Positions 8,114 to 53,988 of a stretch of DNA of 64,000 nucleotides are shown here, one piece after another. Both the position numbers and the translations under genes were made by a program. The notes under the pieces are model-generated. The model saw nothing but the letters and a program-made list of their open reading frames with translations. It ran no database searches and was not told the origin of the DNA. Numbering within the stretch: position 1 is the stretch's first letter; each line of letters begins with the position of its first letter. The stretch spans positions 290,430 through 354,429 of IMG/VR virus record IMGVR_UViG_3300022602_000024; one strand, given 5' to 3'. Source of the stretch: a virus.

Positions 8114-8989
8114 TTAGCTAGTATACGGATATTTTGGCAACAAGTCAACGGCTTTGGCTTCCGGATTGCTCAAAATAAATTCGGCATACTTTTCTTGATT
8201 GTCTACAATGGTTTTAGGGAAGTACGAGTCCAATTCCACAATGCTATAACGATCGTTGGGATTGCCACGATTCCATTCTTTGCGTTCGGCAATCGACTTT
8301 TCTACATCAATCTGCTCAATAAACTCGGGACGATTAACTTCAGCATGTGCAAAGTTCTTGGCCTTGTTACGCAACCATTCGTTGTTGCCCATATAACCAA
8401 AGTGCCAACCACCATGCTCAATCACTTCACATCCATCGTTCTTGAACTGATAAGGCGCTGACATGAATTGGAAACGTATGCGTCTGAATTCTGTAGGGGT
8501 AATGTCTTTCAATAACGCCCGACGCCCGGCCATGGCCCAAATGTCATATTCGCCTGGAGTGGCTCTCATGTAATTGAACTTGAAGTTGTGCAGGCTCATA
8601 CGTAGTGCAAATAGGCTTTGATCGCTAGCAACCATGTACTGTAGTGCAGCCGGACGAATGATTTCATCCAAGTCACTGATCAAGATCAAATCATCTAGGG
8701 CAGCATCAGCAATGCCTTGGCGAATTTGATCTCTGTGGTGTGCTTCGTTAACCCAGGAATCTGGATCATTGGGCATGTCATCAACTTGGATATGGATAAT
8801 CTTATCTGCCCACTGTGCGTAGCGGGCCTTATTATCTTCGTAGTAGTAAGGCTTTGGATTACCTTGATGTGTCATATTGGCTTCAACCAAAACAAAGTGG
8901 TCGACAAAATCATATAATTCTGTTAATCTTAGTTCAAGTAGATCCAACTCATTGTAGAAGGGGAAACAATCGTAGATTTTTATTTTCAT
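8114..8989 (-). CDS. Glycosyltransferase family 17
   Basis: 291 aa. The N-terminus IYDCFPFYNELDLLELRL and the following FVLVEANMTHQG are hallmarks of GT17 (beta-1,4-mannosyl-glycoprotein N-acetylglucosaminyltransferase family). LILISDLDEIIRP near residue 100 contains the DxD-like metal site. The C-terminal part has GGWHFGYMG, also conserved in the family. The late-type box AATAAATA ends five bases upstream of the ATG, so transcription is predicted to begin at the start codon. It is transcribed divergently from the glycosyltransferase at 9045. Confidence 0.85.
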   Translation of the reverse strand: MKIKIYDCFPFYNELDLLELRLTELYDFVDHFVLVEANMTHQGNPKPYYYEDNKARYAQWADKIIHIQVDDMPNDPDSWVNEAHHRDQIRQGIADAALDDLILISDLDEIIRPAALQYMVASDQSLFALRMSLHNFKFNYMRATPGEYDIWAMAGRRALLKDITPTEFRRIRFQFMSAPYQFKNDGCEVIEHGGWHFGYMGNNEWLRNKAKNFAHAEVNRPEFIEQIDVEKSIAERKEWNRGNPNDRYSIVELDSYFPKTIVDNQEKYAEFILSNPEAKAVDLLPKYPYTS

Positions 8990-8994
8990 AGTGA

Positions 8995-9014
8995 TATTTA
9001 TTTGCTAATAAATA
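8995..9014. promoter_or_regulatory. Palindromic divergent late promoter pair
   Basis: TATTTATT-TGCT-AATAAATA is a perfect 20-base inverted repeat. It gives a late-type AATAAATA box on each strand, the minus one for the GT17 gene (start 8989) and the plus one for the gene at 9045. Confidence 0.6.
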
Positions 9015-9044
9015 CTGTACATTAATTTTCAAAGGCGGTCAACC

Positions 9045-9728
9045 ATGTATGCTGTTGTAAGCATGTGCACTTCAAACCTAGATGACCTGGGTAACTTAAC
9101 AAACAAATACAAACTCGAATACTGTGAACGCCATGGTTATGAGTTCTTCAATATCGGCGACGAAGAAATTGGCCCAGTAGACGGCCCATGGAGTTTTTCA
9201 ATGGACTGGCATAAACCACGTTATGTCAGCAACCTATTTGCTCAACGCCCAGATATTGAATGGGCACTAGTAACCGAAGCCGACGCCACCATTACCAACT
9301 TGACCATTCCCATGAGTGATCGGGTAGACAATGACTTCCATGTGGTTGTTCCAGTGGATAGACTCAACATCAATTCCGGCAACATGTTGGTACGCAATAG
9401 CCCAGAAGGTCGTGCTTACTTGCAAGCCATGTTGGCAGACGGAGACAAGTACCTTACAAATACCACCAACAATCCCATATTTGGATTGCAGTTATGGATG
9501 GTAGATACCATTGATCAACATGGTGATATCACAAAGATTGTACCACAAAAGCACATGAACAGTTACGAACTGGAAATTTACGACTATTGCGATGTCAGCA
9601 CCGACATCATGGGCAATAGCGGAGTATGGACCCGGGGCGACTGGATTGTGCACTGGCCTGGTATCAGACATGAAGTTAGACTTCAACGTGCTGCATCATT
9701 AGAAACAGAAGGAAGGATAACAAGATAA
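9045..9728 (+). CDS. Glycosyltransferase, GT34-like (galactosyl/mannosyl transferase fold)
   Basis: 227 aa. The opening AVVSMCTSNLDDLGNLTNKYKLEYCERHGYEFFN resembles GT34 proteins, which start with a short strand followed by N..Y...HgY. The segment ALVTEADATITNLTIP carries the acidic metal-binding motif in the expected place. A later GNSGVWTRGDWIVHWPG corresponds to the C-terminal H-x-P-G region of the family. It opens a plus-strand run of four genes and is preceded by a late-type box and an AAAGG ribosome site. Confidence 0.65.
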   Translation: MYAVVSMCTSNLDDLGNLTNKYKLEYCERHGYEFFNIGDEEIGPVDGPWSFSMDWHKPRYVSNLFAQRPDIEWALVTEADATITNLTIPMSDRVDNDFHVVVPVDRLNINSGNMLVRNSPEGRAYLQAMLADGDKYLTNTTNNPIFGLQLWMVDTIDQHGDITKIVPQKHMNSYELEIYDYCDVSTDIMGNSGVWTRGDWIVHWPGIRHEVRLQRAASLETEGRITR

Positions 9729-10279: not shown

Positions 10280-10286
10280 GGCAGCA

Positions 10287-10937
10287 ATGACAAGTATTCA
10301 AGAAACATTTACTGACATATATGTTAATCGACGTTGGGATGAGCCCAACAAACCCAACGAATCGGCCAGTGGCAACGGATCAACACTGGACTTCACTAGA
10401 AATTTACGTAAAGAACTGCCAAAGTTGTTTGACATGTTTGCTATACAATCAGTATTTGACGCACCGTGTGGTGATTTAAATTGGATGAGTCAAGTGTTAT
10501 CAGAGTGCCCAGACATTGACTATATCGGCGGAGACATTGTTGCGCCGTTGATCGATCAACTCACTGAACAGTATGCCGAATATGCCAACATGGATTTTGT
10601 TAACATCAATATTATCAATGACGAGCTACCTGCTGCAGATTTAATGATCTGCAGAGACTGTTTGTTCCATCTAAGCGAAGCAGATGTCAAAACATTCTTT
10701 AGAAACTTTGTCTCTTCCGATATTGCGGCTTTGTTAGTTACATCCGATATACTGCCAGAACCCAACAGAGACATTGAGACTGGCGACTATCGTCACCTGA
10801 ATCTATTCACTGCACCTTACAACTTTACCGCCGATTACATATACGAAATCAGCGATTGGCCTTATCCTACTCCCGCTACTAGAAAAATGTTTATGTGGAG
10901 TAGAGAACAAATTGAAGAAATAGTGAGCAAATTTTAA
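10287..10937 (+). CDS. Class I SAM-dependent methyltransferase
   Basis: 216 aa. SVFDAPCGDLNWM (about 55-67) is methyltransferase motif I; YIGGDIV follows as motif II and DLMICRDCLFHL as motif IV. This DAPCGD-x-NWM type is common in proteins encoded with nucleotide-sugar pathways. It lies two bases before the next epimerase gene and follows another methyltransferase, so the three are co-transcribed. Confidence 0.8.
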   Translation: MTSIQETFTDIYVNRRWDEPNKPNESASGNGSTLDFTRNLRKELPKLFDMFAIQSVFDAPCGDLNWMSQVLSECPDIDYIGGDIVAPLIDQLTEQYAEYANMDFVNINIINDELPAADLMICRDCLFHLSEADVKTFFRNFVSSDIAALLVTSDILPEPNRDIETGDYRHLNLFTAPYNFTADYIYEISDWPYPTPATRKMFMWSREQIEEIVSKF

Positions 10938-10938
10938 T

Positions 10939-14889: not shown

Positions 14890-14901
14890 AATAAATACTG
14901 C

Positions 14902-15138
14902 ATGATATCCGAAGATTTAGAGTTTGCTTATAGACTTTTGTACACACAGTTGGCCAACAAACCGTATGCGCCTGCGGCATATCATACTAATTCCAGGGAT
15001 TTTGTGCCGGACCCTATACTAACGGATCCAAAGTTCATGCTAGATGAAGATTTGGTGCAACCTCCAGGAATCGAACCTGGTTCAACGGCTCTTCAGACCG
15101 CCGCTATGACCACATCAGCTAAAGTTGCAGATAAATAA
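14902..15138 (+). CDS. Possible small protein overlapping tRNA-Phe antisense
   Basis: 78 codons. The first fifty residues (MISEDLEFAYRLLYTQLANK and onward) have a normal, non-random composition, but the last third is the antisense of the tRNA-Phe gene. An AATAAATA late-type box ends four bases before the ATG; no Shine-Dalgarno sequence is present. It could be a real leaderless gene or a chance frame. Function unknown. Confidence 0.3.
   Translation: MISEDLEFAYRLLYTQLANKPYAPAAYHTNSRDFVPDPILTDPKFMLDEDLVQPPGIEPGSTALQTAAMTTSAKVADK
15053..15128 (-). tRNA. tRNA-Phe(GAA)
   Basis: Acceptor GCAACTT/AGGTTGC, discriminator A, encoded CCA. The anticodon loop CTGAAGA gives GAA. T arm GGTTCGATTCC-type. 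Confidence 0.93.
15130..15137 (+). promoter_or_regulatory. Late-type promoter GATAAATA
   Basis: GATAAATA on the plus strand, 22 bases upstream of the LamG-like gene; a leader with AAAGGA follows. Confidence 0.45.
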
Positions 15139-16618: not shown

Positions 16619-17215
16619 TTACATTGCAGGTCCATTTCCATTTTTACGGAAATCAACTTCACCTCCTTGTGCTTTGATGAGTTTGATAGCATCCTCAAAC
16701 AAGATAGGTGCAAAGTCTGGCAACTGCTCTACACAGGCACACCAGTATCTTGGGTCAACTACCTTGGTGTTGCCCGCTTTCTTTGTCCATCCTGGCATCA
16801 TAACACGATTAGCGTGCAAGTGACCATGTATGTTGGTACCAAAGCGTCCCAATGACTCAGGGTGCAAAGGGATATGACTCAAGATCATGCCCGACATCAC
16901 ATGGTAAGCTCGCAACTCGCGAAAGTGCTCACGATAGTCTTCGTCTCGGAAAATGTCGTGATTGCCACGGATCAGGACTTTGTCTCCGTTTAAGCGATGC
17001 ATGATTTTCAATGCTCGGCGATTGATCACAACATCGCCCAAATGGTAAACTTTGTCTGTGGGCCGAACACGTTCGTTCCAAGCCCGAACCATGGCTTCGT
17101 CCATTTCTTCTGGATCCGTCCATGGGCGCAATTTTGTCACTCCGTCATCACGTGTGAATCTACATACTCCGGCATGACCGAAGTGCGTATCACTGACTAA
17201 AAATACACTAGGCAT
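16619..17215 (-). CDS. Calcineurin-like metallophosphoesterase
   Basis: 198 aa from the start at 17215, chosen because AAGGAGATAT precedes it and an upstream ATG would add an unrelated tail. Metal motifs in order: FLVSDTHFGH (D-x-H), YHLGDVVIN (GD), IRGNHDIF (GNHD), ILSHIPLHP (H) and IHGHLHANR (GHLH), a complete set. It would hydrolyse phosphate esters in the cytoplasm. Its first codons overlap the end of the kinase gene by eight bases, so they are translationally coupled. Together they could act on nucleic-acid ends, though this is inferred from context. Confidence 0.88.
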   Translation of the reverse strand: MPSVFLVSDTHFGHAGVCRFTRDDGVTKLRPWTDPEEMDEAMVRAWNERVRPTDKVYHLGDVVINRRALKIMHRLNGDKVLIRGNHDIFRDEDYREHFRELRAYHVMSGMILSHIPLHPESLGRFGTNIHGHLHANRVMMPGWTKKAGNTKVVDPRYWCACVEQLPDFAPILFEDAIKLIKAQGGEVDFRKNGNGPAM

Positions 17216-17681
17216 ACCATATCTCCTTAAAGCCCTCTTCTTCAGTGGGCATTTCAAAACTTGCCAACATACCTTCCAATACTGCATCAGGAATTTCTTT
17301 ACCAGGTCGGCTATCTAGTCTACGTTTTAATTCAATCCTTGATGGAGTCCCAAATACCACTGCAATTGCATAGTAGTCCGGAAGCATATTGAACTTTCTT
17401 GTACGACTAGTAACTGTAGTTGATGTTTGATCCCAAATAATGTCCCGACCAGATTCACGTGCTGCAACAACTTCTTGTGCCATTAGTTCAACAGCAGTAG
17501 GCATATATTCATTGAATACTTCCGAATATGTTTTGCCTTGTGTAATAGCATAGGCCAGCACAAATTTGTCAGTGGATATATGCGTACAAGTATCTGCCCA
17601 GTCTTGGTTACTGACCCAGGTGCTTTTACCCGATCCAGGCACACCCACTAACACATAAAGTTTTGGTTGTTTTGTTTCCAT
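17208..17681 (-). CDS. P-loop kinase, polynucleotide-kinase-like
   Basis: 157 aa. Walker A GVPGSGKST at residues 13-21, then STDKFVLAYA, DIIWDQTSTTVTSR and a R-x3-R lid (RIELKRRLDSRPGKE), the layout of the T4 Pnk 5'-kinase domain and related small kinases. The C-terminal phosphatase domain of T4 Pnk is absent, but a separate metallophosphoesterase gene follows directly. A TATAAT box (17687-17692) ends five bases before the ATG and there is no Shine-Dalgarno sequence, so a leaderless mRNA is possible. Confidence 0.75.
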   Translation of the reverse strand: METKQPKLYVLVGVPGSGKSTWVSNQDWADTCTHISTDKFVLAYAITQGKTYSEVFNEYMPTAVELMAQEVVAARESGRDIIWDQTSTTVTSRTRKFNMLPDYYAIAVVFGTPSRIELKRRLDSRPGKEIPDAVLEGMLASFEMPTEEEGFKEIWYA

Positions 17682-17699
17682 ACTGTATTATACTATAAA

Positions 17700-19025
17700 T
17701 CACCGTATTTGCAAAATACGATTTTCTTTTTCCAGACAAACTGATCCTGAGTGTTGTTTTAATGCCACAATTAACGCATCACTGCGGCTTTTTAGCCACG
17801 ATAATCCATAACGTGCTATAGTGTGTTCCATGTTATAAGCATTACTGACCCACATATACACATTGCCTTGTAATGTGTTAACAAAAGTATCGACCTGTTC
17901 AGTATCATGTAGATCCAGCAGAGTATAGTCAATCGTTAACTGGCAATACTGTTGCCAAGCAGATTGAAAGTCTGCGGCAGTCATTCTAGCTGACGTTAAA
18001 AATGCTGACACTTCAGTGTCCCATGTATTCCAACTGCGCCAAGCATAAATTAAATCGGAATGTTGTTTTTGGTACTGATCAAAAACTTGCTGGTAATCAG
18101 CAAAGTTACCGTCCCAGTTAGCTACCAAATATCTTTGATAATCCAATGCAGGTTTGCTAATGTCAAATAGGCTAACTCTGGTATCAGCATCAAATCCTTG
18201 AGAATTTAATACTGCCACTGCTTTTAATCCGCCACATACACCTACATAGTGGTCAATCTTACGCGGTGTGGTTATCAGCACTGGTTCACTATTTAATACA
18301 TAAACTGTACGTAAGTCATCCGCAAACAAACCACGTATATGACCAGCATATTTTTGTAGCGGTATTACAGTGGGGTTGAATGTCCAGTCCTTAAACAACT
18401 GTTCAAGTTCCTTTTGATTGTCTGTAGGATACAAATAGACTTTTCTATTTCTAATGTTATTGTTTACATTAATTAATCGGTATCCATGTTCTAAAAATGT
18501 TCGTACTACATGGGTACCAAACTCAAATTCTCGGACTTGATATGTTTGTGTGCCCGTAGCGGGTCGAATCCAATAGGGAGTATATTCATCATGAAAGTTT
18601 TCTTTACTACGTTCTACGCAACAACTAGTAAAACGATATCCCCCAGGTACACCCGGGACTGCGCCGAACCGTGGCCGACCCACTGCTGTCCACGCCTGCA
18701 AGTTCAAACAAAAGAACTGCGGATCAATATTGTAATATCCTCTACGATCCAACAAGTGTCCCACTAATGGAGCGTTGTTATCGATGCTGTCTGAGATGAT
18801 TTCATCGTTAATACTGCCCAGGCGTAGATAGTTGCCCAATGCCGACACCACTACGAAATCTACTCCACGGTCTGCAAGCTCTATCAGTTTATCATCTAAG
18901 TGTGTGGTACTATCAAATCGCCAACCCGCTACAGGAAAGTGATAATATTGATTTAATTCTAATAAGCGTGTGTGTACCACTTCGCCAACATCAGTGTTGT
19001 CATAACACAAAAAAACTTTATTCAT
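17700..19025 (-). CDS. Large protein of unknown function
   Basis: 441 aa. No family recognised. The N-terminus VFLCYDNTDVGEVVHTRLLEL and FVVVSALGNYLRL suggests an alpha/beta fold; two cysteine-containing stretches (FFCLNLQAW, TSCCVERS) occur in the middle. Its start overlaps the next upstream gene (19018) by eight bases, so the two are coupled. No signal peptide or membrane segment is seen. Confidence 0.6.
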   Translation of the reverse strand: MNKVFLCYDNTDVGEVVHTRLLELNQYYHFPVAGWRFDSTTHLDDKLIELADRGVDFVVVSALGNYLRLGSINDEIISDSIDNNAPLVGHLLDRRGYYNIDPQFFCLNLQAWTAVGRPRFGAVPGVPGGYRFTSCCVERSKENFHDEYTPYWIRPATGTQTYQVREFEFGTHVVRTFLEHGYRLINVNNNIRNRKVYLYPTDNQKELEQLFKDWTFNPTVIPLQKYAGHIRGLFADDLRTVYVLNSEPVLITTPRKIDHYVGVCGGLKAVAVLNSQGFDADTRVSLFDISKPALDYQRYLVANWDGNFADYQQVFDQYQKQHSDLIYAWRSWNTWDTEVSAFLTSARMTAADFQSAWQQYCQLTIDYTLLDLHDTEQVDTFVNTLQGNVYMWVSNAYNMEHTIARYGLSWLKSRSDALIVALKQHSGSVCLEKENRILQIR

Positions 19026-19968
19026 TGACAGTGACTCGTAGTTGATCTGCCGAAAAACTATTTCTACGATTTCGGAGCATGACCAAAAATTCTTTACCTG
19101 ATACTACTCGTCCAACAGGCATGCCGCAAATTGCCGGTGTGTATGTTACACCACCTTTGGCTAACCAATTTTGAAAATCTGTTGTTTTAACAATGTCTGA
19201 TCTTCTTAATGGCGAAATATCAATCGCTAGTTTTGCTGAGTACCCTAACATATGGGTTATGTCCCATGCTCCTGCATCATCATCTTCGTAATAAGCAATT
19301 ATATAATCTTTGCCTAGTATGCTGGTTCCTACCCATACATCATAATCGCCACTATCATCCCAATATGGATAATCTTCTTGCTCTATATTAAAAAAACATT
19401 CTTTAATAAGTCTGGTGCCATCGTTGATGTAGGTGTTGGCAATAATTTCAACTTGTTGAGCCAATTCTGAAATATTATTGGTTTTAAGATCTGTTTTAAC
19501 ATACAGTTCTGTTTTATGTACTATATCATTGATTTGATCTATCAGATACAAAAATCTATCCTGATCCGACTCCTTTAACTGAAATGTCAAAGGCACTCTA
19601 TCATTCCACACATACGGCGGACCATCATAATATGAACGATGTGCAGTAGTAAATGCTCGATGCAAGTCATTCAGATAATGCTGGGTTTCTTTGGTTCTTT
19701 TTTGCATCAGATCTACATCAACTTGATATAAAAAGTCGGTACCCATTGCATTTAATTCATTGATAGTATCAGTGAGACGTTGTATTTGCGTGTCGACAAA
19801 TCCCTGCGGAGGTGAAAGCATGATTCCGCCATAAGTCTTTGTGTAAAATATTGTCGGATAGTCCAAAAACATTTCTGTAATTTTCGAAATAAATTTGTCT
19901 GTAAAAGAATTTTTTACAACTTCGATTTGAGAAACACCCAATGGAGATTCTATTGTGATTGTTGACAT
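19018..19968 (-). CDS. Protein of unknown function
   Basis: 316 aa. I do not recognise it. It is acidic and mostly helical in character (repeated I/L..D..N patterns around residues 55-190) with a tyrosine/aspartate-rich centre (QEDYPYWDDSGDYDVWVG). No metal or nucleotide motif is obvious. It is divergent from the radical SAM gene at 19998 and coupled to the gene downstream. Confidence 0.6.
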   Translation of the reverse strand: MSTITIESPLGVSQIEVVKNSFTDKFISKITEMFLDYPTIFYTKTYGGIMLSPPQGFVDTQIQRLTDTINELNAMGTDFLYQVDVDLMQKRTKETQHYLNDLHRAFTTAHRSYYDGPPYVWNDRVPLTFQLKESDQDRFLYLIDQINDIVHKTELYVKTDLKTNNISELAQQVEIIANTYINDGTRLIKECFFNIEQEDYPYWDDSGDYDVWVGTSILGKDYIIAYYEDDDAGAWDITHMLGYSAKLAIDISPLRRSDIVKTTDFQNWLAKGGVTYTPAICGMPVGRVVSGKEFLVMLRNRRNSFSADQLRVTVNE

Positions 19969-19983
19969 GTTCGTATTTACTCC

Positions 19984-19991
19984 TATAAATA
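19984..19991 (+). promoter_or_regulatory. T4-type late promoter TATAAATA
   Basis: Exact TATAAATA on the plus strand; the ATG of the radical SAM gene begins six bases later, so the mRNA should start one base before or at the AUG. Confidence 0.7.
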
Positions 19992-19997: not shown

Positions 19998-21119
19998 ATG
20001 AACAATTATTGCCCTGACTTATTCAACACTATCTTTATACAAAAAGTCAATGAATCAGAGTCCGAGATTGGACATTGTTGTGTTAGCAAGTTGAGTGACC
20101 CAGTATCCACTATTGATTTTCAAAGTGATTTCTTAGCTACCAATCGACAACATTTTTTATCAACAGGCAATCTCCCGCCTGCTTGTGTTTACTGCACCAC
20201 TGCTGAATCCAAAGGGGAAATTTCAAGACGCACTAAACGGTCAAGACCTTATGTAGAAAACAATAACTATCCAACTGAAGTAGTGGTAGAACATTTAGAT
20301 TACAATTGCGACAATATATGTAATTTGAAATGTATAATGTGTAGCGGATACTACAGCAGTGCCTGGAGAGAAGATGAAGTAGCACTAGGTTTCAGAATAG
20401 ATTATCGTACTAAACCTACCAAACACAACACAATGATATACGATGCTGATGTGAGTAAACTCAAAAGCATTTATTTCAACGGAGGCGAACCCTTAATGAC
20501 TCGGGATCATATAAATGTGCTGAATCATGCGTTGTCTAATAGTCAAGAACCACAACATATTCGGATTAGCTATAGCAGCAACGGCACCTTTCCGATGACT
20601 GACGAGATGGCAGATTTGTGGAAACAGTTCGAAGCAGTTTACATCAACTTCAGCATTGACGCCACAGAAAAAGAATTTGAGTACATACGGTTTCCTGCAA
20701 TATGGGCTGACGTTGAAAAAAATATTGATACTTTCCGCTTGCCAAATTTGGTAACAAAAATTACTGCTACCGTAGGAGTACACAATATATTGTACTTTGA
20801 CAAATTGTACCATTGGGCAGCTAAACGCAACATAGAAATATATGTACAAGATACCAATGGTAGATCACAACTTGCAATACAAAACTTTCCCAGGGCTGGC
20901 AAAGATCGTTTGATTGCTTATCTTAATAAATTACCAGAGTCTGGCAGTAAACAATCGTTGTTGAATCTTGCACACAACATCAATAACGACGGGCATGCAC
21001 GATGGATCGAGTATCTTAACAAACTAGACCGTATGCGAGGCAACAACTGGAGAAATAGTCTAAGTAGACTGAATGAAATCAACAGGTCATGGATGTATGG
21101 AGTAAGGGGTGAGATTTGA
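19998..21119 (+). CDS. Radical SAM protein with auxiliary cysteines
   Basis: 373 aa. The radical SAM motif is C108-x3-C112-x2-C115 (NICNLKCIMC), followed by IYFNGGEPLM. Additional cysteines at 5, 27, 28 and a CxxC at 63-66 mirror those of the protein at 117-1247, so both belong to one twitch/SPASM-type phage family. The substrate is unknown. The last 22 bases of the gene overlap the tRNA-Cys gene on the opposite strand. A TATAAATA box sits six bases before the ATG and no ribosome-binding site is present. Confidence 0.8.
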   Translation: MNNYCPDLFNTIFIQKVNESESEIGHCCVSKLSDPVSTIDFQSDFLATNRQHFLSTGNLPPACVYCTTAESKGEISRRTKRSRPYVENNNYPTEVVVEHLDYNCDNICNLKCIMCSGYYSSAWREDEVALGFRIDYRTKPTKHNTMIYDADVSKLKSIYFNGGEPLMTRDHINVLNHALSNSQEPQHIRISYSSNGTFPMTDEMADLWKQFEAVYINFSIDATEKEFEYIRFPAIWADVEKNIDTFRLPNLVTKITATVGVHNILYFDKLYHWAAKRNIEIYVQDTNGRSQLAIQNFPRAGKDRLIAYLNKLPESGSKQSLLNLAHNINNDGHARWIEYLNKLDRMRGNNWRNSLSRLNEINRSWMYGVRGEI

Positions 21120-21176: not shown

Positions 21177-21869
21177 TTATTTTTTTTGCCGAACTAAACG
21201 AACAGGTCCTTGAATCATACGAGAACCTGGTTGACTAACAGGATTTACTAAAGAGATATACTTGTCGTAGTATTTTTTATCCATAGTAAGATTTAATTTG
21301 TTTAAAAAACTTAAAAAGTAATCCCAATTTCTCCAGATTTGTTCAATATCAATTTCATAATCAAACAAACCCGAATTATAATATTTTCGAATGTCATTTT
21401 CAATAATACGTTTATTTTCAGCTGGGTCTCCATTGGCGGATGGTATCAGACCTGTTTTTAATATAAGGTCTTTATTGACTCTATCAAAATCCAAACTGTA
21501 CAGATATATCTTGATTTGATTTTTTTCTACTATATTTTTGTATGAACATGTTGATATCTGTTGAAAATATACACTAGGATGACAAGGTATGACAGTATTG
21601 TGATTTTGTGCCACAATATTTAAATAAGAACTCTTGATCTCTTCAATGGGCACTATAACGTTAGGACGTCTAAACGGGTGTGCTGCTTGTTTGTTAGTTG
21701 CCCATCTTGGACTATAAAATTTAACAGTATTACCGTAATCTTTACCAGATTTAGTGTCCAATCTCCAAGTTAGCTCATTGTCAGCTAGTACCATGTTATC
21801 TGCATGTTCTAATAGATTAGCGAACCCATCACCCCCGACTCCGGGTGTATAGAATATCCAATACTGCAT
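21177..21869 (-). CDS. Unknown protein, possibly sulfotransferase-like
   Basis: 230 aa. The N-terminus WIFYTPGVGGDGFANLLEHADN resembles the glycine-rich phosphosulfate-binding loop at the start of some sulfotransferase-like proteins, and the C-terminus (YEIDIEQIWRNWDYFLSFLNKLNL) resembles the closing helix of that group. The match is weak and no 3'-phosphate-binding motif is certain. An exact TATAAATA (21876-21883) lies six bases upstream, immediately after the CCA end of tRNA-Ser(GCU), and there is no ribosome site. Confidence 0.5.
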   Translation of the reverse strand: MQYWIFYTPGVGGDGFANLLEHADNMVLADNELTWRLDTKSGKDYGNTVKFYSPRWATNKQAAHPFRRPNVIVPIEEIKSSYLNIVAQNHNTVIPCHPSVYFQQISTCSYKNIVEKNQIKIYLYSLDFDRVNKDLILKTGLIPSANGDPAENKRIIENDIRKYYNSGLFDYEIDIEQIWRNWDYFLSFLNKLNLTMDKKYYDKYISLVNPVSQPGSRMIQGPVRLVRQKK

Positions 21870-21875: not shown

Positions 21876-21883
21876 TATTTATA
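21876..21883 (-). promoter_or_regulatory. T4-type late promoter TATAAATA
   Basis: Exact TATAAATA on the minus strand, abutting the tRNA-Ser 3' end at 21884 and six bases before the start codon at 21869. Confidence 0.65.
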
Positions 21884-21974: not shown

Positions 21975-22595
21975 TTAGATCAGATTTAACTCTGTTAATT
22001 CTTTGCGTTTCCATACAAGTAATGGTTCAGTGAACTGCTCCCATTTACATCTATCTAACGCGGTTTCGTATCCTTTAATCTCTAAATATGATTCAAGTTC
22101 TTCTACCCAGAAATCCGGAACGTAAAAACTTATCTTACCGTCAAGATTAAGATACTGAAATCTTTTTGTATTTCTTTTCCATTCATAATGATTAGCATCT
22201 AACCACTTGGCCACAACAAGTTCCCATGTGCCATCTAAAAACACTTCGCCAGCAGTGGGTGAAATATATTTAAACTTCTTACATCTACCTGCCTTTGGCA
22301 TCCAACCCGATTCGTATCTTGCGATAATTCGTTTTCTCTGCGTTTCTTTAAACTCGTCAGAATGTTTTACGGGCGCTTTAGTTAAATTATGCAGATTTCC
22401 TGCATTACTTCTATTTCTTGATTTAAAGACCCCTCGTTTAATAGCCATTCGTATAGCCCCGGGAGATACTCCGTAAGTGGCATATAGCTGACTATGAGAC
22501 ATGCCTTTGTCATACTCTGACTGAATAAATTCCCAATTGTATTTTGCTTTCATACAATTATTTAGCATTTTTGCGTTAATCTGCTCCAATACCAT
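21975..22595 (-). CDS. PD-(D/E)XK nuclease, probable free-standing homing endonuclease
   Basis: 206 aa. The N-terminal third looks like a helix-turn-helix DNA-binding segment (SHSQLYATYGVSPGAIRMAIKRG). The C-terminal half carries FLDGTWELVVAKWLDANHYEW, then FYVPDFWVEELESYLEIKGY, giving E...D-x(n)-E-x-K nuclease residues. This arrangement is typical of phage homing-type nucleases. It is inserted between tRNA genes, a common site for such elements. Internal ATGs at residues 10 and 15 are alternative starts; AGGA lies 13 bases upstream of the longest form. Confidence 0.7.
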   Translation of the reverse strand: MVLEQINAKMLNNCMKAKYNWEFIQSEYDKGMSHSQLYATYGVSPGAIRMAIKRGVFKSRNRSNAGNLHNLTKAPVKHSDEFKETQRKRIIARYESGWMPKAGRCKKFKYISPTAGEVFLDGTWELVVAKWLDANHYEWKRNTKRFQYLNLDGKISFYVPDFWVEELESYLEIKGYETALDRCKWEQFTEPLLVWKRKELTELNLI

Positions 22596-25583: not shown

Positions 25584-25630
25584 ACTGATATTTATTTGAA
25601 TAGATCCATGGCAAAAATTACCTATCGGGT

Positions 25631-25705
25631 TGGTTGCAGAGGACGGAATCGCACCGCCGATCTTCAGGTTATGAGCCTGACGAGATACTACTTCTCCACT
25701 CTGCG
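25631..25705 (-). tRNA. Initiator-type tRNA-fMet(CAU)
   Basis: The acceptor CGCAGAG/CTCTGCA leaves a C1-A72 mismatch, the hallmark of bacterial initiator tRNA. The anticodon stem-loop TCAGG-CTCATAA-CCTGA keeps two of the three G-C pairs of the initiator GGG/CCC. Overall it tracks E. coli tRNA-fMet closely. The T loop is TGCGATT instead of TTCGATT. Confidence 0.85.
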
Positions 25706-38274: not shown

Positions 38275-39759
38275 TTAACGTTTGATACCAGCCAAACTAC
38301 GGATAAAGTCCAAATCATCTGCTTCACGTAGTTTAACGTTGGGATCAGTTACTGGATCATCCATACTGCTTGCACCATACTGATCATTTGGATGTGCATC
38401 TTCGGGACTAACTGGATTCACATGATTGGTGTGTGCGTCATCTACATTGCGTTGCCCGATCGTTAATTGGCTCAACACTTCTGGCTTGTGATCACGTAGC
38501 CATGTTTTAACCAATGGTCGAGCATCTTGGTCCGGACCTTGATCTTTGGCATAGTGATAAATGGCTATATTTAAATCAGTTAAGTCATCGCCGGGGAACA
38601 ATTCTTTTAAATCAGTTGTAGCATCAATACCTTGCATACCAATGGTCCAAGGTTGTGACATTTTGTCTTGTAGTGCGTCAATATCAAAATCTGCAGTGGA
38701 TTCTGATTCGTCCCATACACTTTCAGTTACACCGTCAGCCCACTCGTCTAATTCATTACCCAGTTGTGCGGCTGCTTCTGATTGATATTTCTTGTATGCT
38801 TTATAAACTGTTGGCAATGCTTCAGTAAAACGATCATCATAGACCTTTTTAACAAAACGTTCACGTAGTGCATCTACATCCACATCTTCTTCAGCAGATG
38901 ATTCAGGAACAAACTGCTCTATAAATTCTTGGTAGTGCTTTCTGTTGGCCAGATGACGTAGTGTATTTTTAAGTTGTAGGTAATGGCGTGTTGCAGCCTG
39001 AGCCATGTCAGCCGTTTCAGAGTCTTCAAATTGTCGACGTTTGGTAGCACGAACAAAATGACTCATACTGCTCATTTCGCCAACCATGTTGGTAATGCAC
39101 TCGCCAATTTCATCACGCATATCGCCACCGTGTGTGATATGATTACACATGGCACGAGCACCGTGTAGGTTCTTAAATGGCATTAGGAAACGTTCGCCAC
39201 GTGGAGTTTCCACAAATATTTCACGTATCTTACGAGCACGGTCACCACGCACTTCATCATTTACTAGTCCATCATGCTTGATCAGCAAGCGGCATTCACC
39301 AATGTCGGCATAACTGTTACGGCTTGTTCCGTATAGTCGGCTTTCAGTTACTGCTACATCATTGGCACTAGCAACATTATCAACCTTGGCCTGTTGTTTA
39401 ATATCCTGCAGTTCAAGATTGCTTTTGGTAATGTCACGAGTGTCAAAAGTCAGCAAGTTACGACGTGCAAAGTCACGCATGTTGCGCAGGAACATGTACC
39501 AATCTTTGCGTTGCTCCCGGTCCATTTCCGTGGATATGTTTTGTCCATAGTAGACTTTTAAACTGGTTTCATCAATTAAACTAATAGTAACGGTACCAAA
39601 TTGGGCACCAGTAGGATCACTGTAAGTAAAGTTAAAAAACCGTGCTTTTTCAGGATCTGTGGTGGCTTTGGCTTTTTCATCGCCGAGCGTCACATTTTCA
39701 AAGCGTGAACGGACTTTATCAAATAGGGCGGCTGCAACGGATTCAATTTCTTTGGACAT
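38275..39759 (-). CDS. Conserved-type phage protein of unknown function
   Basis: 494 aa. No family recognised. The N-terminal part includes ARFFNFTYSDPTGAQFGTVTISL, the middle has ETPRGERFLMPFKNLHGARAMCNHITHGGD, and the last 70 residues are low-complexity and acidic. Position between terminase and gp32, with a late promoter seven bases before the ATG, suggests a late, probably virion or packaging-related protein. Confidence 0.6.
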   Translation of the reverse strand: MSKEIESVAAALFDKVRSRFENVTLGDEKAKATTDPEKARFFNFTYSDPTGAQFGTVTISLIDETSLKVYYGQNISTEMDREQRKDWYMFLRNMRDFARRNLLTFDTRDITKSNLELQDIKQQAKVDNVASANDVAVTESRLYGTSRNSYADIGECRLLIKHDGLVNDEVRGDRARKIREIFVETPRGERFLMPFKNLHGARAMCNHITHGGDMRDEIGECITNMVGEMSSMSHFVRATKRRQFEDSETADMAQAATRHYLQLKNTLRHLANRKHYQEFIEQFVPESSAEEDVDVDALRERFVKKVYDDRFTEALPTVYKAYKKYQSEAAAQLGNELDEWADGVTESVWDESESTADFDIDALQDKMSQPWTIGMQGIDATTDLKELFPGDDLTDLNIAIYHYAKDQGPDQDARPLVKTWLRDHKPEVLSQLTIGQRNVDDAHTNHVNPVSPEDAHPNDQYGASSMDDPVTDPNVKLREADDLDFIRSLAGIKR

Positions 39760-39766: not shown

Positions 39767-39774
39767 TATTTATA
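39767..39774 (-). promoter_or_regulatory. T4-type late promoter TATAAATA
   Basis: Exact TATAAATA on the minus strand, seven bases before the start codon at 39759. Confidence 0.65.
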
Positions 39775-41332
39775 TCATTATAAAAGGAAGTGGCTCTACA
39801 AACTGATCTATACTGTCTCGCACTTCTGAATCTAATCCAGAATCAAACTGTTGTATTAGTTGTAGCATACGCAATACCAGTAGTGTAGCCATAACCAAAT
39901 CGTCGTGGTCGCCCAATTTGGCAGCATACCCAGTGCCCGATGCAACAAATGATTTTAATTCGCTAATTAACGATTTACTGGCTATATGCATACGTTTGGT
40001 TTCTATTAGGCTTTTTAGTTTGGCACAAGCAGCCAACTTGCTCTTGTTAGTAGTAGTAAATCCTTTACGATATCTAGTGCCTGTGCCACCTCGACGGGGC
40101 TCTGTTAAAAACGTTCCAGGAATGTTTTCCTCGCCCATTTGGCTAATAACCACTAAAGCGGCTTCTCCTAGGGTATTATTTTCTATGCTGTAGTATACGT
40201 TAGTGGGACCTGTAATATCGGCAAGATACTTGCAGATTTCCTGCATAATCACCACCTGTCGTTGCACAATTGTGCGATTATGACTCCATTCGGCCACCTG
40301 TTTTAGTCCCGGCATCTCAAACACTTGTATAGCTGCTGGATCGGATCCTGTGCCTAAGCTAGGATCTAATCCCACAATATAGGTATGATCACGTTGCGGT
40401 TTTTTGTACCAGCGTATTTGTCCTTGCTTTTCAACAGGATCAATGCCGGCCATTTCAACCAAGTGCAAGGGATTGATTAGGGTTTCATCAAAGATAATAA
40501 ACTCGCAGTCCATTTCGCGACGGAATCGTTCTTCTCCCAATTGTGCTCGCATTTGGTCAGCCCAAGCATCATCACGATCTGGATGCTCACGCCAAGCACT
40601 ACGAAATGCTTTGAATCCGTTTTTGCCCAGTTCTGTTTCGTTGCCGTATTCGTCAAAGCAATTGTTGGCGCCTTTCCAAATCTGTGCAAACTGATCTTCA
40701 TCTGAGTTTGGTGTACTTGTAATAATACACTTACCACCAGTTGCTAGTGTAGGAGTAATCGAAGTCCAAAACTCTGACGCAATAGTGGGACGAACGAACG
40801 CAAACTCATCACAATACAGGAGTGATATGGACATACCACGACCGGTATTTTCTGTTGTTGTCTGCGAAACTATCCTTGACCCGTTTTCAAAGTCCAACGA
40901 TCCTTTGTTGTAACTGGTAACACCAGCACGTATAAAGTCTGGGCAGTTTTCGTATGCATATCTGACACGTTGCATAATCTCTTGTGCACCCAAATACTTG
41001 TGTGCTGCCACTAGGATAGTCGAGTCCGGGACAAACATAGCATACCATAACAAGTATCCTGCGGCACTGGTTGATTTCCCCGTTTGTCTAGGCATCATAC
41101 TGATACTGTATCTATAATTATGATATGTATCTATCAGTCGTTGTTGATATTCAAACGGATGATATTGTATTGCACCCTTGGTTGGGTGCTGGATGAAAAA
41201 GTAATTGCTCATAAAATACTGTGGACCAGTTTCAGGATCGGCACACCGTGCGATTTCCAAAATTTGTTCTTCAGTATAAGACATCCGCTTGTACGGTGCC
41301 TTAATAATTGCCGTTTCTAGTTCTTTAGCCAT
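39770..41332 (-). CDS. gp17: Terminase large subunit
   Basis: 520 aa. Walker A MPRQTGKS at residues 80-87, Walker B LLYCDEFAFV near 172, and motif III TSTPN form the packaging ATPase. The C-terminal nuclease has VGLDPSLGTGSDP with its metal-binding aspartate, and later GDHDDLVMATLL. Order and size fit T4 gp17. It cuts concatemers and pumps DNA into proheads. Its stop lies within the late promoter of the next gene. An HNH gene lies immediately beyond its start on the other strand. Confidence 0.95.
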   Translation of the reverse strand: MAKELETAIIKAPYKRMSYTEEQILEIARCADPETGPQYFMSNYFFIQHPTKGAIQYHPFEYQQRLIDTYHNYRYSISMMPRQTGKSTSAAGYLLWYAMFVPDSTILVAAHKYLGAQEIMQRVRYAYENCPDFIRAGVTSYNKGSLDFENGSRIVSQTTTENTGRGMSISLLYCDEFAFVRPTIASEFWTSITPTLATGGKCIITSTPNSDEDQFAQIWKGANNCFDEYGNETELGKNGFKAFRSAWREHPDRDDAWADQMRAQLGEERFRREMDCEFIIFDETLINPLHLVEMAGIDPVEKQGQIRWYKKPQRDHTYIVGLDPSLGTGSDPAAIQVFEMPGLKQVAEWSHNRTIVQRQVVIMQEICKYLADITGPTNVYYSIENNTLGEAALVVISQMGEENIPGTFLTEPRRGGTGTRYRKGFTTTNKSKLAACAKLKSLIETKRMHIASKSLISELKSFVASGTGYAAKLGDHDDLVMATLLVLRMLQLIQQFDSGLDSEVRDSIDQFVEPLPFIMI

Positions 41333-41359
41333 GATAAGTATATTTAACTGTTATTCAAA

Positions 41360-44855: not shown

Positions 44856-45344
44856 CTATTTGTCTTTCTTGGCCAGTATCGATTTTAGTAGTTCATTACG
44901 ATCTAGTATTACGCCTTGCCCTTCTATTGCTTCTTCAGCAGGGTCTTTTTTATCTTTACTAATCTGGTGATCTAATCGGGCTTTTTGTAGTTGCAAACTG
45001 ATCATGCGCAACTTTTTATCCATTTTGGCAGTTTTGGCAGTAATCGCATGCCCCAGCATTACTCCTGCAGTTTGTAGGATAACACCACTAAAACGTGGCT
45101 CTACATTCATACCCAAATCTATTAGGTCTTCGGCTTTTTGTTTGGCTAGATTTGCTAGTTCATCCAGTTCGCTATCGCCAGTGTCTAAGTCTCTGACCAA
45201 GGGTAGTGCAGCATCAATTTTGCTGATGGCACTATCTACTTCAGTGATCAAATCACGATTTTCATCAATGATAGCTGCAGTTTCTTCCGGCGTTGTGTTA
45301 GGAGCAGGGGCTAAATTTAGTAGTTCTTCTAGGCGTTTGGTCAT
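44856..45344 (-). CDS. gp16: Terminase small subunit, gp16-like
   Basis: 162 aa. Helical, with the region MNVEPRFSGVILQTAGVMLGHAITAKTAKMDKKLRMISLQLQ, which matches the E-P-R-x-x-x-V...m.......L..LQ pattern of T4 gp16-type small terminases. It recognises DNA ends and stimulates gp17. GTAAATA ends five bases before the ATG. Confidence 0.7.
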   Translation of the reverse strand: MTKRLEELLNLAPAPNTTPEETAAIIDENRDLITEVDSAISKIDAALPLVRDLDTGDSELDELANLAKQKAEDLIDLGMNVEPRFSGVILQTAGVMLGHAITAKTAKMDKKLRMISLQLQKARLDHQISKDKKDPAEEAIEGQGVILDRNELLKSILAKKDK

Positions 45345-45352
45345 ACCAATAT

Positions 45353-46066
45353 TTACCGCTGGGCATCTACGGCATGTTGATAACTATTGATCATTATTTG
45401 TTCAAACAGGGGGCTACGCCATTGTCCGTGCACTATCATATGAAAGCGTTGCTCGTTGCTGTTGTTCACTACACAATGCTGGTAATGGTTATTAAACAAA
45501 AACGTACTTCCGGTGTTTTTAAACGGTACTGTGCCTAGCTCTGTTGTTAGATAGCAATTGTCGGGATTGTTTAAACTGATGTTTATGGCCGCAGTCAGCA
45601 TAGGATTAGCATTGTCTGAATGTGGTTCAATGTATCCACCAGGTTCTACCAACATGAATCTCACACGTTGATATCTAATGTAAGGAAATATATTTTTGAA
45701 ATAGTTATGGGTAACAGGACATTGGTCAACAATTTCAGTCCATTGATAAATTGATTGATCTCTAGCGTCTAATCCATAGGCATTTGCAGCATCAGTCTTT
45801 TCTGCGCCGAAGCCGTGCACACACAAACTGCGCCATCCGTAACTGTCACCTTCTCGATGTGTGACAAATTGCGGCTCTAATGCCTGCGCTTCTGCCAACA
45901 TCTCAGCATAGGGAGCATCTATCAATAGTTCTAAATATGGTGATGGATTATTATTTTGTAAGAATCTAAAATTGTCAGCAGCTATTTCTGAAGGAAACGG
46001 CCGATATTGATAGGTATTATCTTTATTATCAACATGGAATTTTTGTGCTAGTGCTTGGCTGGTCAT
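45353..46066 (-). CDS. 2-oxoglutarate/Fe(II) oxygenase, Asp/Asn beta-hydroxylase-like
   Basis: 237 aa. The C-terminal half holds IEPHSDNANPML (H-x-D), then FLFNNHYQHCVVNNSNEQRFHMIVHG, giving the distal iron histidine and the 2-oxoglutarate arginine of aspartyl/asparaginyl beta-hydroxylases. Such oxygenases are frequent in T4-like marine phages. Substrate unknown. AAGGTAAA precedes the start, which overlaps the gp4 gene by four bases. Confidence 0.8.
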   Translation of the reverse strand: MTSQALAQKFHVDNKDNTYQYRPFPSEIAADNFRFLQNNNPSPYLELLIDAPYAEMLAEAQALEPQFVTHREGDSYGWRSLCVHGFGAEKTDAANAYGLDARDQSIYQWTEIVDQCPVTHNYFKNIFPYIRYQRVRFMLVEPGGYIEPHSDNANPMLTAAINISLNNPDNCYLTTELGTVPFKNTGSTFLFNNHYQHCVVNNSNEQRFHMIVHGQWRSPLFEQIMINSYQHAVDAQR

Positions 46067-48433: not shown

Positions 48434-48466
48434 ATAGTTTGGTCCCGATACTATAATATTTAGTCC

Positions 48467-48496: not shown

Positions 48497-48517
48497 GATT
48501 TTGTTCGTTACAAACTA

Positions 48518-49132
48518 TTATGGTAAAGCAGTTACACCAGGAGTTTGTGTAACTACGGAAGTACCGATTCCGCCACCTACTGTTTGAACTGCGTTATCAA
48601 ATTTGATTGTTAATGCAATTGTTACAGGATCGTTGCTGTTGTAGTTCATATCACCGTAGTCAACTTGACTCAAGAAACATCCATCTAGTTCCCATGACTC
48701 AAGAATGTTAGGTTGAGTAGTTCCGTTGCCACCATCCAACATATCAAATGTAAGTTGGAATTTGTAGTTAACACCGGCGCTTGCACTTGCTTGTTCTAAG
48801 AAGTCAAACTGTTTCTGAACTTGTTGTCCGACTAATGTACTGACAGCACCAGTGGCATCGTCACGTAGATTAATTGTGGTTTCTTGCCACTCAGGCTTAC
48901 CTTGTAAGTAAATCTTTGAGTTATATACATCAAGAGTAATTGGATTAAAGTTAACGCTGGGACGTTTAATATCCATCACTTGCTTGGTAAGTTCTGTAGT
49001 ACCATTACTTGTTCCAAAGCTAATAAAATTAGCGCGGAATCTGTATTTTAGTTTTGGCATCAACAGGCCTTGCGGGCCCGATTGACTGCCACTTAGTGGT
49101 ACTGTGAAATTATTTAAACTTGCTACTGCCAT
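48518..49132 (-). CDS. gp19: Tail tube protein, gp19-like
   Basis: 204 aa. MPKLKYRFRANFISFG, the following KQVMDIKRPSVNFNPITLDVYNSKIYLQGKPEWQETTINLRDD and ILESWELDGCFLSQVDYGDM match T4 gp19. It forms the inner tube of the contractile tail. Strong AGGAGA ribosome site; GATAAATA at 49152-49159. Confidence 0.9.
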   Translation of the reverse strand: MAVASLNNFTVPLSGSQSGPQGLLMPKLKYRFRANFISFGTSNGTTELTKQVMDIKRPSVNFNPITLDVYNSKIYLQGKPEWQETTINLRDDATGAVSTLVGQQVQKQFDFLEQASASAGVNYKFQLTFDMLDGGNGTTQPNILESWELDGCFLSQVDYGDMNYNSNDPVTIALTIKFDNAVQTVGGGIGTSVVTQTPGVTALP

Positions 49133-49151
49133 ATTCTTCTCCTGTTATCCT

Positions 49152-49159: not shown

Positions 49160-49163
49160 TATA

Positions 49164-52478: not shown

Positions 52479-52509
52479 GGTGTTATTCCTTTAAAATACA
52501 TGTTATAGT

Positions 52510-52517
52510 TATTTATA
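52510..52517 (-). promoter_or_regulatory. T4-type late promoter TATAAATA of sheath gene
   Basis: Exact TATAAATA on the minus strand, 31 bases upstream of the start codon at 52478. Confidence 0.7.
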
Positions 52518-52577
52518 ATAAAGGTATATTTTTGGGTGGTTACAGGAGCCTTTGGGAAGGTTTAACTTAAATACTGT

Positions 52578-52928
52578 ATGCTTACTAGAGAATTATGCCC
52601 GTTATGTCACACCGATCCAGTTGCTGTTAACTATGTTCGAGAGGGAACAACTCACTACCGAAATAGTTGTAGTGCTTGTATTAGAAAAGGTAGGAAACTA
52701 AAGCCTGAACCGCCAGCATGGCAACGGTTAGGTTATAAGAAAAAACCCACCTGTGAGAAATGTGGCTTTAAATTCAAGTTTATGGAACAAAGTGTAGTGT
52801 TCCATGTGGATGGTAATTTAAAAAACAACAATCACTTTAATCTCAAGACTGTGTGCTTGAACTGTCAACAAGAGATTTATAAGAGCCGCTTGCTATGGAA
52901 ACCGGCTGCGATTGTACCAGATTTTTAA
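52578..52928 (+). CDS. HNH-like zinc-binding protein
   Basis: 116 aa with four cysteine pairs: CPLCHTDP, CSACIRKG, CEKCGFKF and CLNCQQEI. The last two flank FHVDGNLKNNNHFNLKTVCLNC, which has the H-x-N-x8-N/H spacing of HNH nucleases. It stands opposite its neighbours, like the HNH gene at 41360. TTAAATA ends four bases before the ATG. Its last 86 bases overlap the dNMP kinase gene on the other strand. Confidence 0.65.
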   Translation: MLTRELCPLCHTDPVAVNYVREGTTHYRNSCSACIRKGRKLKPEPPAWQRLGYKKKPTCEKCGFKFKFMEQSVVFHVDGNLKNNNHFNLKTVCLNCQQEIYKSRLLWKPAAIVPDF

Positions 52929-53523
52929 CTGCGGCATACAGTTCTTCGATAGTTCCATTGTTGTCAATAACAACATCAAAACGTGTTCCGGCCCAACTTG
53001 TTTCGCTGGGGTGAATACCGTTGTCTTTTAACCATTTGGCAGCTTTGGTATCGCCTGAGTTGGCCTTGGCAGCAATATCGTACCAGTGTGGAGTAATACC
53101 ACGTTGCACCCAAACGATTCGTCCGCCTTGTGCTTTGATACTTTTAATTTCATTAGGAAAACGGCAGTCACTGATTACTATACTGTCTTGGCTATTACGC
53201 AGTTTATTTTCTAAACTAGCAATCCACATATCGTCATGGAATCCATCACGTATAACTTCAGTGCCCCAGTATTGCAGGACCCATCTTGGAGTAAGATTAG
53301 GCATATTTAAACGTTCTGCCCACCAAGGATCTACTTGCTCGCGCCATTCACGTGCTGACTTAGTACGTCCTTCTAACATGGTACGATCCCAACCAAATAC
53401 TGCAGACACCGCATCTTTAAGTGTGCTAGCAAACGATTCACGCCTAAATTCGTGGAAGTTAACCAAATAGTCTGCGGCTGTATCTTTACCGCTACCAATC
53501 AAACCGCAGATTCCTATGATCAT
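52843..53523 (-). CDS. gp1: Deoxynucleoside monophosphate kinase, gp1-like
   Basis: 226 aa. P-loop GLIGSGKDTAADYL at residues 7-20, then LTPRWVLQYWGTEVIRDGFHDDMWI, the diagnostic segment of T4 gp1 and related dNMP kinases, and VISDCRFPNEI. It phosphorylates dNMPs for phage DNA synthesis. Its Shine-Dalgarno GGAG lies inside the upstream terminator hairpin. Confidence 0.9.
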   Translation of the reverse strand: MIIGICGLIGSGKDTAADYLVNFHEFRRESFASTLKDAVSAVFGWDRTMLEGRTKSAREWREQVDPWWAERLNMPNLTPRWVLQYWGTEVIRDGFHDDMWIASLENKLRNSQDSIVISDCRFPNEIKSIKAQGGRIVWVQRGITPHWYDIAAKANSGDTKAAKWLKDNGIHPSETSWAGTRFDVVIDNNGTIEELYAAVKNLVQSQPVSIASGSYKSLVDSSSTQS

Positions 53524-53551
53524 AAAAAATGCTCCTATTACAGAGCATTTT
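53524..53551 (-). terminator. Terminator hairpin containing the dNMP kinase ribosome site
   Basis: AAAATGCTC-tgtaatag-GAGCATTTT followed by more T is read on the minus strand. The 3' arm GGAGC is the Shine-Dalgarno for the ATG at 53523, so folding would both end transcription and hide the site. Confidence 0.6.
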
Positions 53552-53577
53552 AACGGATTTGTAACACAAAGGTCAAA

Positions 53578-53988
53578 TTATTTTTTCTTCAAAACAATTG
53601 GACCGACTCGGCGTGTTGTGCTGGCTTTGTTTACAGAATCAGTTTCACTTGATCCATCTGGAGTGAGTTGTAGGTGTCCAGCTTCAGGACCAAATGCTTT
53701 TGCGGCCTGATCTAAAATACGACGTTCTCCGTCAGTGTAAGCAGTAGCAATCAATGATTGTCCGGCAGGACCTTCTTTGGCAGGTTCGTGCTCATATTCG
53801 CCGCTGGGATCTCCGGCACCTGCTAAGAACATAGCAGAAAAGCGCCAAGGAGCATAAGGACTTGAGTTGTCTAACTTGTGATGACTACGCATACCGGGTG
53901 TGGCAGTTTGATGGCTATCTGGGATGCCATCATTGTCGGCGTCGTTGTCTACTTTTTTTGCTTCTGCAATAATTTCAGTGATTTTCAT
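53578..53988 (-). CDS. Small phage protein of unknown function
   Basis: 136 aa. N-terminus KITEIIAEAKKVDNDADNDGIPDSHQTATPG contains a short D-x-D-x-D-G calcium-loop-like motif (DNDADNDGIPD). It ends with a basic KK tail. CTAAATA ends six bases before the ATG. Not recognised; position next to gp13 suggests a structural role. Confidence 0.55.
   Translation of the reverse strand: MKITEIIAEAKKVDNDADNDGIPDSHQTATPGMRSHHKLDNSSPYAPWRFSAMFLAGAGDPSGEYEHEPAKEGPAGQSLIATAYTDGERRILDQAAKAFGPEAGHLQLTPDGSSETDSVNKASTTRRVGPIVLKKK

Follow-up and report, generated by a model that had tools for sequence, protein, structure and literature searches.

The final 64,000 bases of the 354,429-base virus record IMGVR_UViG_3300022602_000024 (positions 290,430 to 354,429, in the following called the window; the whole record is called G000) carry T4-type late promoter boxes whose TAAATA core ends only 4 to 8 nt before an ATG start codon. 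Throughout, d is the count of bases between TAAATA and ATG, the short class comprises boxes with d of 4–8, and the leadered class comprises those with d of at least 18 and a Shine-Dalgarno (SD) sequence. The short spacing is beyond chance, clade-wide and broader than first reported, and the genes behind it lack SD sequences. As predicted from promoter geometry and base composition, these promoters very probably give rise to mRNAs that are leaderless (0 nt) or nearly so (2–3 nt).

A first-pass annotation had listed eleven boxes 4–7 nt upstream of ATG codons, and all of its coordinates and spacings proved to be exact (Table 1). The box had been given there as the full 8-mer TATAAATA, which only 4 of the 11 sites contain in full, whereas the TAAATA core is present at all 11. 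Since TATAAATA occurs 7 times in the window against 5.6 expected, it shows no excess; the signal is the constant spacing of the TAAATA core from the start codon, not the count of the 8-mer. Three short-class sites had been missed, namely those at 19968 and 22553 (minus strand, d = 5) and the one in front of the terminase gene at 41332 (minus strand, d = 8). Normal leaders had been described for the sheath gene, the tube gene and the gene 48518–49132 (named gp13 in the annotation), and these genes indeed have d values of 31, 23 and 19. Further matches were set aside: a d = 8 match at 10287 (plus strand) has an SD-like AAGG and is probably due to chance, and at 5280, 51202 and 46464 (TTG) the open reading frames (ORFs) or their starts are unlikely, with 5280 judged a chance match.

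Within the window, TAAATA lies 4–8 nt before 14 of the 72 start ATGs, but among the 2333 other ATGs it does so only 7 times (Fisher p = 1e-17). A scan beyond the window covered seven 20-kb stretches of the same genome that the author of the first-pass annotation had not seen (140 kb), where the box is again enriched at this distance (9/160 start ATGs versus 6/5006 other ATGs, p = 9e-11). At 9–17 nt, boxes precede 0 of 72 start ATGs in the window and 1 of 160 outside. Counting only ATGs that open at least 60 codons, the 67 TAAATA hexamers of the window (both strands) yield 16, 0 and 11 hits at d = 4–8, 9–17 and 18–25, respectively, and the outside stretches yield 12, 1 and 16; the probable chance matches at 10287 and 5280 are among the 16 of the window. 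The spacing is two-peaked, being either 4–8 nt or at least 18 nt with an SD sequence, and the zone from 9 to 17 nt is almost empty. Permuted hexamers reached a maximum of 8 hits at 4–8 nt in the window, compared with 16 for TAAATA. Outside the window, TAATAA and ATAATA reached 10 each versus 12 for TAAATA, partly because they match the TATAAT boxes of sigma70-type promoters; the suspicion that these two hexamers were failed negative controls was dropped after inspection had identified several of their hits as such boxes.

The terminase encoded in the window is closest (42–54% identity) to those of the jumbo phages PA5oct, Phosso, Atu_ph07 and the Rak2-like group (121Q, GAP32, CBB), and the tail sheath protein has the same nearest relatives. 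For closer relatives we used the best 80 of at least 599 IMG/VR loci obtained with the terminase as query (67–84% identical, 1.08 Mb), calling genes greedily and grouping them into families by BLASTP. In these loci, 191 boxes lie at 4–8 nt, 21 at 9–17 nt and 100 at 18–25 nt, and d = 5 is the commonest spacing in the clade (88 boxes). The short class includes 215 of 1445 genes, or 197 genes in 50 families once identical upstream 30-mers are removed; both totals leave out the Atu_ph07 and PA5oct loci and include 27 sites of the genome studied here, two of which have TTG and some of which are probably chance matches. At least one short-class gene was found in 72 of the 80 related contigs.

The arrangement is conserved among orthologues in several families. 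The family of the structural gene starting at 39759 has the short form in 70 of 82 members and a box farther from the ATG in the remaining 12; the 45344 family (phrog_16202) has the short form in 32 of 39 and the 31548 family (phrog_3560) in all five, while the 44820 family belongs to the opposite, leadered class in 41 of 44 members. The tail tube family is mixed, with 11 short and 14 leadered forms among 36 members, several of each form lying directly behind an intrinsic terminator hairpin with its T run; the tube gene in the window is leadered. Some orthologues swap between the short form and the form with a leader and SD sequence.

Eight other T4-type phages (T4, KVP40, Syn9, GAP32, Vibrio 2.275.O, Phosso, Atu_ph07 and PA5oct) have 0 or 1 box at 4–8 nt per stretch, in stretches of 41–50 kb each (two for KVP40, the first with mostly non-structural genes); 121Q and CBB lie outside this comparison set. 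Over whole records, the pattern TAAATA-N4-8-ATG and its reversed control gave 55 versus 27 in G000, the sole clear excess, compared with 21 versus 26 in T4, 48 versus 68 in PA5oct, 41 versus 65 in Atu_ph07 and 20 versus 45 in GAP32, and near parity in KVP40, Syn9, Phosso and 2.275.O.

The start of transcription can be predicted from T4 geometry. The T4 late box is reported to span positions -13 to -6 (PMC1524935), and position -13 is also named in PMC2988020, in agreement with this geometry; at d = 5, +1 therefore falls on the A of ATG. Among the leadered promoters (n = 137), A makes up 61% and C 1% at the fifth base after the box end, and A 55% at the sixth, which suggests that transcription probably starts at one of these two bases. 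In front of d = 5 genes, a pyrimidine occupies position -1 in 90 of 92 cases (the majority in 26 of 27 families), compared with 357 of 696 other genes. Directly before the ATG, ACT or ACC is found in 21 of 41 genes at d = 7 and in 9 of 13 at d = 8, with the A of this triplet at box +5 or +6. The first-pass prediction that the RNA begins at or next to AUG is supported; the sites at d = 7 and 8 look like sites of 3-nt rather than zero leaders. Its worry that transcripts from d = 4 sites might miss the AUG is weakened by the leadered promoters, in which the rarity of C and frequency of A make initiation at box +5 plausible.

The translation signals divide along the same line. SD pairing, scored against an anti-SD 9-mer, had medians of +0.60 kcal/mol for the short class in this genome (27 genes) and +0.40 in the relatives (161 genes), the level of shuffled sequences (+0.20), as the claimed lack of SD sequences had implied. 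The leadered class reached -4.15 (32 genes) and -4.00 kcal/mol (100 genes), respectively, and other genes -3.1 kcal/mol (99 and 520 genes). Folding energies of the first 45 nt were -1.6 for short, -2.6 for leadered and -3.5 kcal/mol for other genes. Among in-frame codons, there were 211 ATG, 3 TTG and 3 GTG at d = 4–8 versus 142, 15 and 12 at d = 17–28. In the 45344 family, conservation sets in at the start codon, with the motif M-T-x-K-L (T 94%, K 88%, L 97%); MTKR opens the orthologous proteins of PA5oct and Atu_ph07. The longer ORF upstream of 25583, which has a GTG start, would cross a tRNA gene.

At some sites there is hardly room for a leader. The divergent start codons at 19968 and 19998 are separated by 29 bp that contain both boxes. 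In several relatives (L021, L023, L025, L026, L064, L068), the terminase and a divergent neighbour, in a few cases with a mechanically called start, begin 13–15 bp apart with a box in between, which makes a leader from that box impossible. These 13–15 bp gaps are also very small bidirectional promoter regions in their own right.

The same rule, which the first-pass annotation had not noticed, appears at sigma70-type promoters. In G000, TTG-N18-20-TATAAT-N5-7-ATG has 16 matches versus 3 in the reversed control, all 16 sites lying within G000:C1:94085-347353 (-), on the strand that carries most window genes. By eye, TATAAT is separated from ATG by 6 nt at 12 sites and by 5 nt at 4, and two of the 16 sites, at G000:206200 and 206442, are identical and stand in tandem some 240 bp from each other. 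PA5oct has 6 matches versus 1 in the control, and the other seven records have 0–3 each. The sigma70 -10 box occupies positions -12 to -7, so that with TATAAT 6 nt upstream the A of ATG becomes the expected +1. Two sigma factors that differ in their expected spacing would accordingly both place the predicted start at the AUG. Together with the lack of SD sequences, the nearly empty 9–17 nt zone and the conservation among orthologues, this separate set with a predicted spacing of its own supports the earlier view of a distinct class of leaderless mRNAs. By their promoter type, these sigma70 sites would be early. Relatives of one such gene (L010; again the best 80 of at least 599) were inspected by eye, and 21 of the 80 rows combine TTGACA/TATAAT, with no more than 2 mismatches overall, and an ATG 5–7 nt downstream; 14 of them are without mismatch, and one, L106, is nearly identical to this genome. 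Because the other 59 rows lack such a promoter there, some being leadered or matching poorly, we claim only recurrence for this gene. PA5oct (NC_071039) has sigma70 promoters with TATAAT 6–7 nt before ATG at 12831, 158206 and 216211 that could likewise be leaderless.

The phage also encodes components that could act on initiation. The window contains GroEL, a gp32-like single-stranded DNA-binding protein, sheath and tube genes and 21 tRNAs. Hallmarks of a bacterial initiator tRNA are the C1 x A72 mismatch and three consecutive G-C pairs in the anticodon stem; one tRNA-Met has C1 opposite A72, but its third anticodon-stem pair, read by eye, is A-U, and we therefore call it initiator-like only. 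A tRNA-Met in the relative L060 also has C1/A72, whereas most other tRNA-Met genes found pair normally at this position. A bS21 gene at G000:C1:232992-233180 (-) itself lies behind a late box with d = 7 and ACT before its ATG; a search of genome contigs for bS21, aimed at the host, gave only two weak relatives, in metagenome-assembled genomes of little-known lineages, and a possible resemblance of the bS21 C-terminus to betaproteobacterial forms was given no weight. For IF3, none was found in this genome, with a control that matched in 10 of 14 genomes; GAP32, in contrast, has an annotated IF3. A relative of gp55 is encoded at G000:30553-31398 (phrog_12791, E = 7e-83; phrog_234, E = 3e-24). 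The gp45 clamp family phrog_223 had no match in the genome, but it matched no control genome either.

From these observations we propose that a large share of the late mRNAs in this jumbo phage clade is leaderless. Host RNA polymerase with the phage gp55-type late sigma factor would bind the TAAATA box and initiate at an A 5 or 6 nt past it, mostly after a pyrimidine. At d = 4 or 5, this A would be that of the AUG and the leader would be 0 nt, whereas at d = 6–8 it would lie 2–3 nt before the AUG, often giving 5'-ACU-AUG at d = 7 or 8. The missing SD sequence and the weak structure of the first 45 nt suggest translation by the leaderless route, in which ribosomes with fMet-tRNA would bind the 5'-terminal AUG. 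A second late class would retain a leader with an SD sequence, and intermediate spacings would be avoided as too long for the one mode and too short for the other. The sigma70-type promoters would follow the same design, with TATAAT 5–6 nt before ATG, and the initiator-like tRNA may help, because initiation on leaderless mRNAs reportedly benefits from initiator tRNA: according to a review, extra initiator tRNA strongly boosts leaderless and only slightly canonical translation (PMC9031893). For phage bS21, late expression and a role in favouring phage transcripts have been described or proposed (PMC9723584). We consider it conceivable, though doubtful, that the whole phage programme, sigma70-type and late, runs on leaderless mRNA, with the phage initiator tRNA and bS21 steering host ribosomes to AUGs at the 5' end, which would let phage mRNAs outcompete the SD-led mRNAs of the host.

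Several observations weigh against predicted leaderless transcription, or narrow it. At d = 4, a pyrimidine at -1 is not enriched (22/33, p = 0.11), and the +1 of T4 would fall on U. The d = 7 and 8 sites would strictly not be leaderless, given their apparent 3-nt leaders, and the start site itself is a prediction from T4 geometry and base composition. Conservation is uneven, since the short form occurs in only 5 of 67 members of the 53988 family and in 19 of 84 terminase genes, and the conservation counts, taken from loci fetched around the terminase, exclude the window sites 8989, 14902, 21869, 25583, 27436 and 52578. Finally, genes are densely packed: for 184 short-class genes an upstream stop on the same strand was found, and it lies within 30 nt in 120 of them, so that translational coupling is possible for many.

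This last point leads to the view that the boxes are real late promoters, while protein is made mainly from read-through mRNAs by stop-start coupling, which would reduce the leaderless RNA to a by-product. In agreement with this view, the TAA within the box doubles as the upstream stop codon in 37 of 197 genes, yet coupling leaves the preference for 4–8 nt and the avoidance of 9–17 nt unexplained. Upstream genes cannot act by coupling at the divergent starts 8989 and 19968/19998, the genes at 21869 and 25583 follow tRNA genes, and 12 of the 197 genes lie behind a perfect-stem terminator; we regard this explanation as unlikely. The same overlap of TAA with stop codons, together with AT-rich sequence and the lack of over-representation of TATAAATA in the window, might suggest that the spacing arises by chance or from frequent stops near the next start. 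The effect is, however, absent from hexamers of equal composition, from non-start ATGs and from the eight other T4-type phages, and it recurs out of sample; on the hexamer, non-start ATG and reversed-pattern controls we rejected this view, whose probability is negligible.

Misassigned start codons, with true starts and SD sequences inside the annotated genes, might be expected where ORF starts are called mechanically, and in 40 of 197 genes another possible start lies farther upstream than the short-class ATG. Conservation beginning at that very ATG, as at residues 2 and 5 of the phrog_16202 family, and the similar opening residues of the PA5oct and Atu_ph07 orthologues make this very improbable. 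The frequent ACT or ACC at d = 7 and 8 could instead mean that the 2–3-nt leaders, often ACU, are recognized as a separate element by ribosomes modified through bS21, whose gene carries this very arrangement, and do not follow the ordinary leaderless route. Most short-class genes have d = 4–6, though, the ACT/ACC cases come from only four gene families at d = 7 and three at d = 8, and such a role of bS21 here would be conjectural, which leaves this reading quite unlikely. Leaderless or near-leaderless late mRNAs remain the reading that best accounts for the spacing.

Table 1 Promoter boxes and associated features in the window.
Feature	Position	Strand	Associated gene or remark
Late box, d = 5, ATG 8989	8995..9000	-	Gene 8114-8989, glycosyltransferase family 17
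Late box, d = 4, ATG 14902	14892..14897	+	Gene 14902-15138
Late box, d = 5, ATG 19968	19974..19979	-	Gene 19018-19968; divergent partner of 19998
Late box, d = 6, ATG 19998	19986..19991	+	Gene 19998-21119, radical SAM
Late box, d = 6, ATG 21869	21876..21881	-	Gene 21177-21869; directly behind tRNA-Ser
Late box, d = 5, ATG 22553	22559..22564	-	Gene 21975-22553; alternative ORF start 22595
Late box, d = 5, ATG 25583	25589..25594	-	Gene 24642-25583, nitronate monooxygenase family; behind tRNA-Met
Late box, d = 4, ATG 27436	27441..27446	-	Gene 26594-27436; another TAAATA at d = 31
Late box, d = 4, ATG 31548	31553..31558	-	Gene 30073-31548, phrog_3560
Late box, d = 7, ATG 39759	39767..39772	-	Virion structural protein 38275-39759
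Late box, d = 8, ATG 41332	41341..41346	-	Terminase large subunit 39770-41332
Late box, d = 5, ATG 45344	45350..45355	-	Gene 44856-45344, phrog_16202
Late box, d = 4, ATG 52578	52568..52573	+	HNH endonuclease-like 52578-52928
Late box, d = 6, ATG 53988	53995..54000	-	Gene 53578-53988
Leadered late box for contrast, d = 31, tail sheath	52510..52515	-	
Leadered late box for contrast, d = 23, tail tube	48457..48462	-	
Sigma70 TTGACC-N17-TATAAT, 6 nt to ATG 56889, predicted leaderless	56887..56924	-	Gene 56638-56889
Sigma70 TTGCAA-N16-TATAAT, 5 nt to ATG 17681	17679..17714	-	Gene 17208-17681, AAA_33/zeta-toxin-like kinase domain
Sigma70 TTGACA-N17-TATAAT, 6 nt to ATG	83..120	-	ORF runs past the left window end
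tRNA-Met with initiator features	25631..25705	-	C1 opposite A72; A11-U24; 2 of 3 G-C pairs in anticodon stem

If the proposal is right, a phage can make its virion proteins by the leaderless route even though it uses SD sequences as well, and the clade would seem to be a rare large-scale user of leaderless mRNA. With orthologues that switch modes, it would offer a natural system for studying what makes leaderless translation efficient, such as initiator tRNA, bS21 and IF3. For gene calling, start predictors that demand an SD sequence will misplace these starts.

Leaderless genes of bacteria have been predicted from sequence on a large scale before (PMC3160421), and leaderless mRNAs are described as resistant to kasugamycin (PMC5230787). 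Searches of open-licence PMC articles for leaderless mRNAs in connection with T4-like or late-promoter phages, at the level of titles and abstract beginnings, turned up none that describes a leaderless class for a phage with a gp55-type factor. A passage of the AR9 paper describes phage transcripts as often leaderless, yet the AR9 leaders given there measure 26–491 nt. The freshwater jumbo phages with bS21 (PMC9723584) resemble this phage in being large freshwater phages with that gene, and we liken them by these features only; the terms "leaderless" and "promoter" do not appear in the main text of that article.

The late promoters of T4, served by gp55, gp33 and gp45, share with those described here the TAAATA core, a gp55-type sigma factor, boxes before structural genes and a leadered class with SD sequences. 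Textbooks explain late transcription with T4, whose late genes are preceded by leaders. T4 differs in having a single box at 4–8 nt in the region examined and no whole-genome excess, whereas about half of the start-associated late boxes in the window belong to the short class. Among the nearest described relatives by terminase and sheath (the Rak2-like phages, PA5oct, Atu_ph07 and Phosso), PA5oct, Atu_ph07, Phosso and GAP32 likewise lack the short class of late boxes that this clade has. The leaderless mRNAs of bacteria and archaea and that of lambda cI show the same design, with a promoter element directly before the ATG, no SD sequence, an AUG start and weak 5' structure; what sets the present case apart from them is its occurrence in a T4-type phage, its wide use and its association with two different sigma factors.

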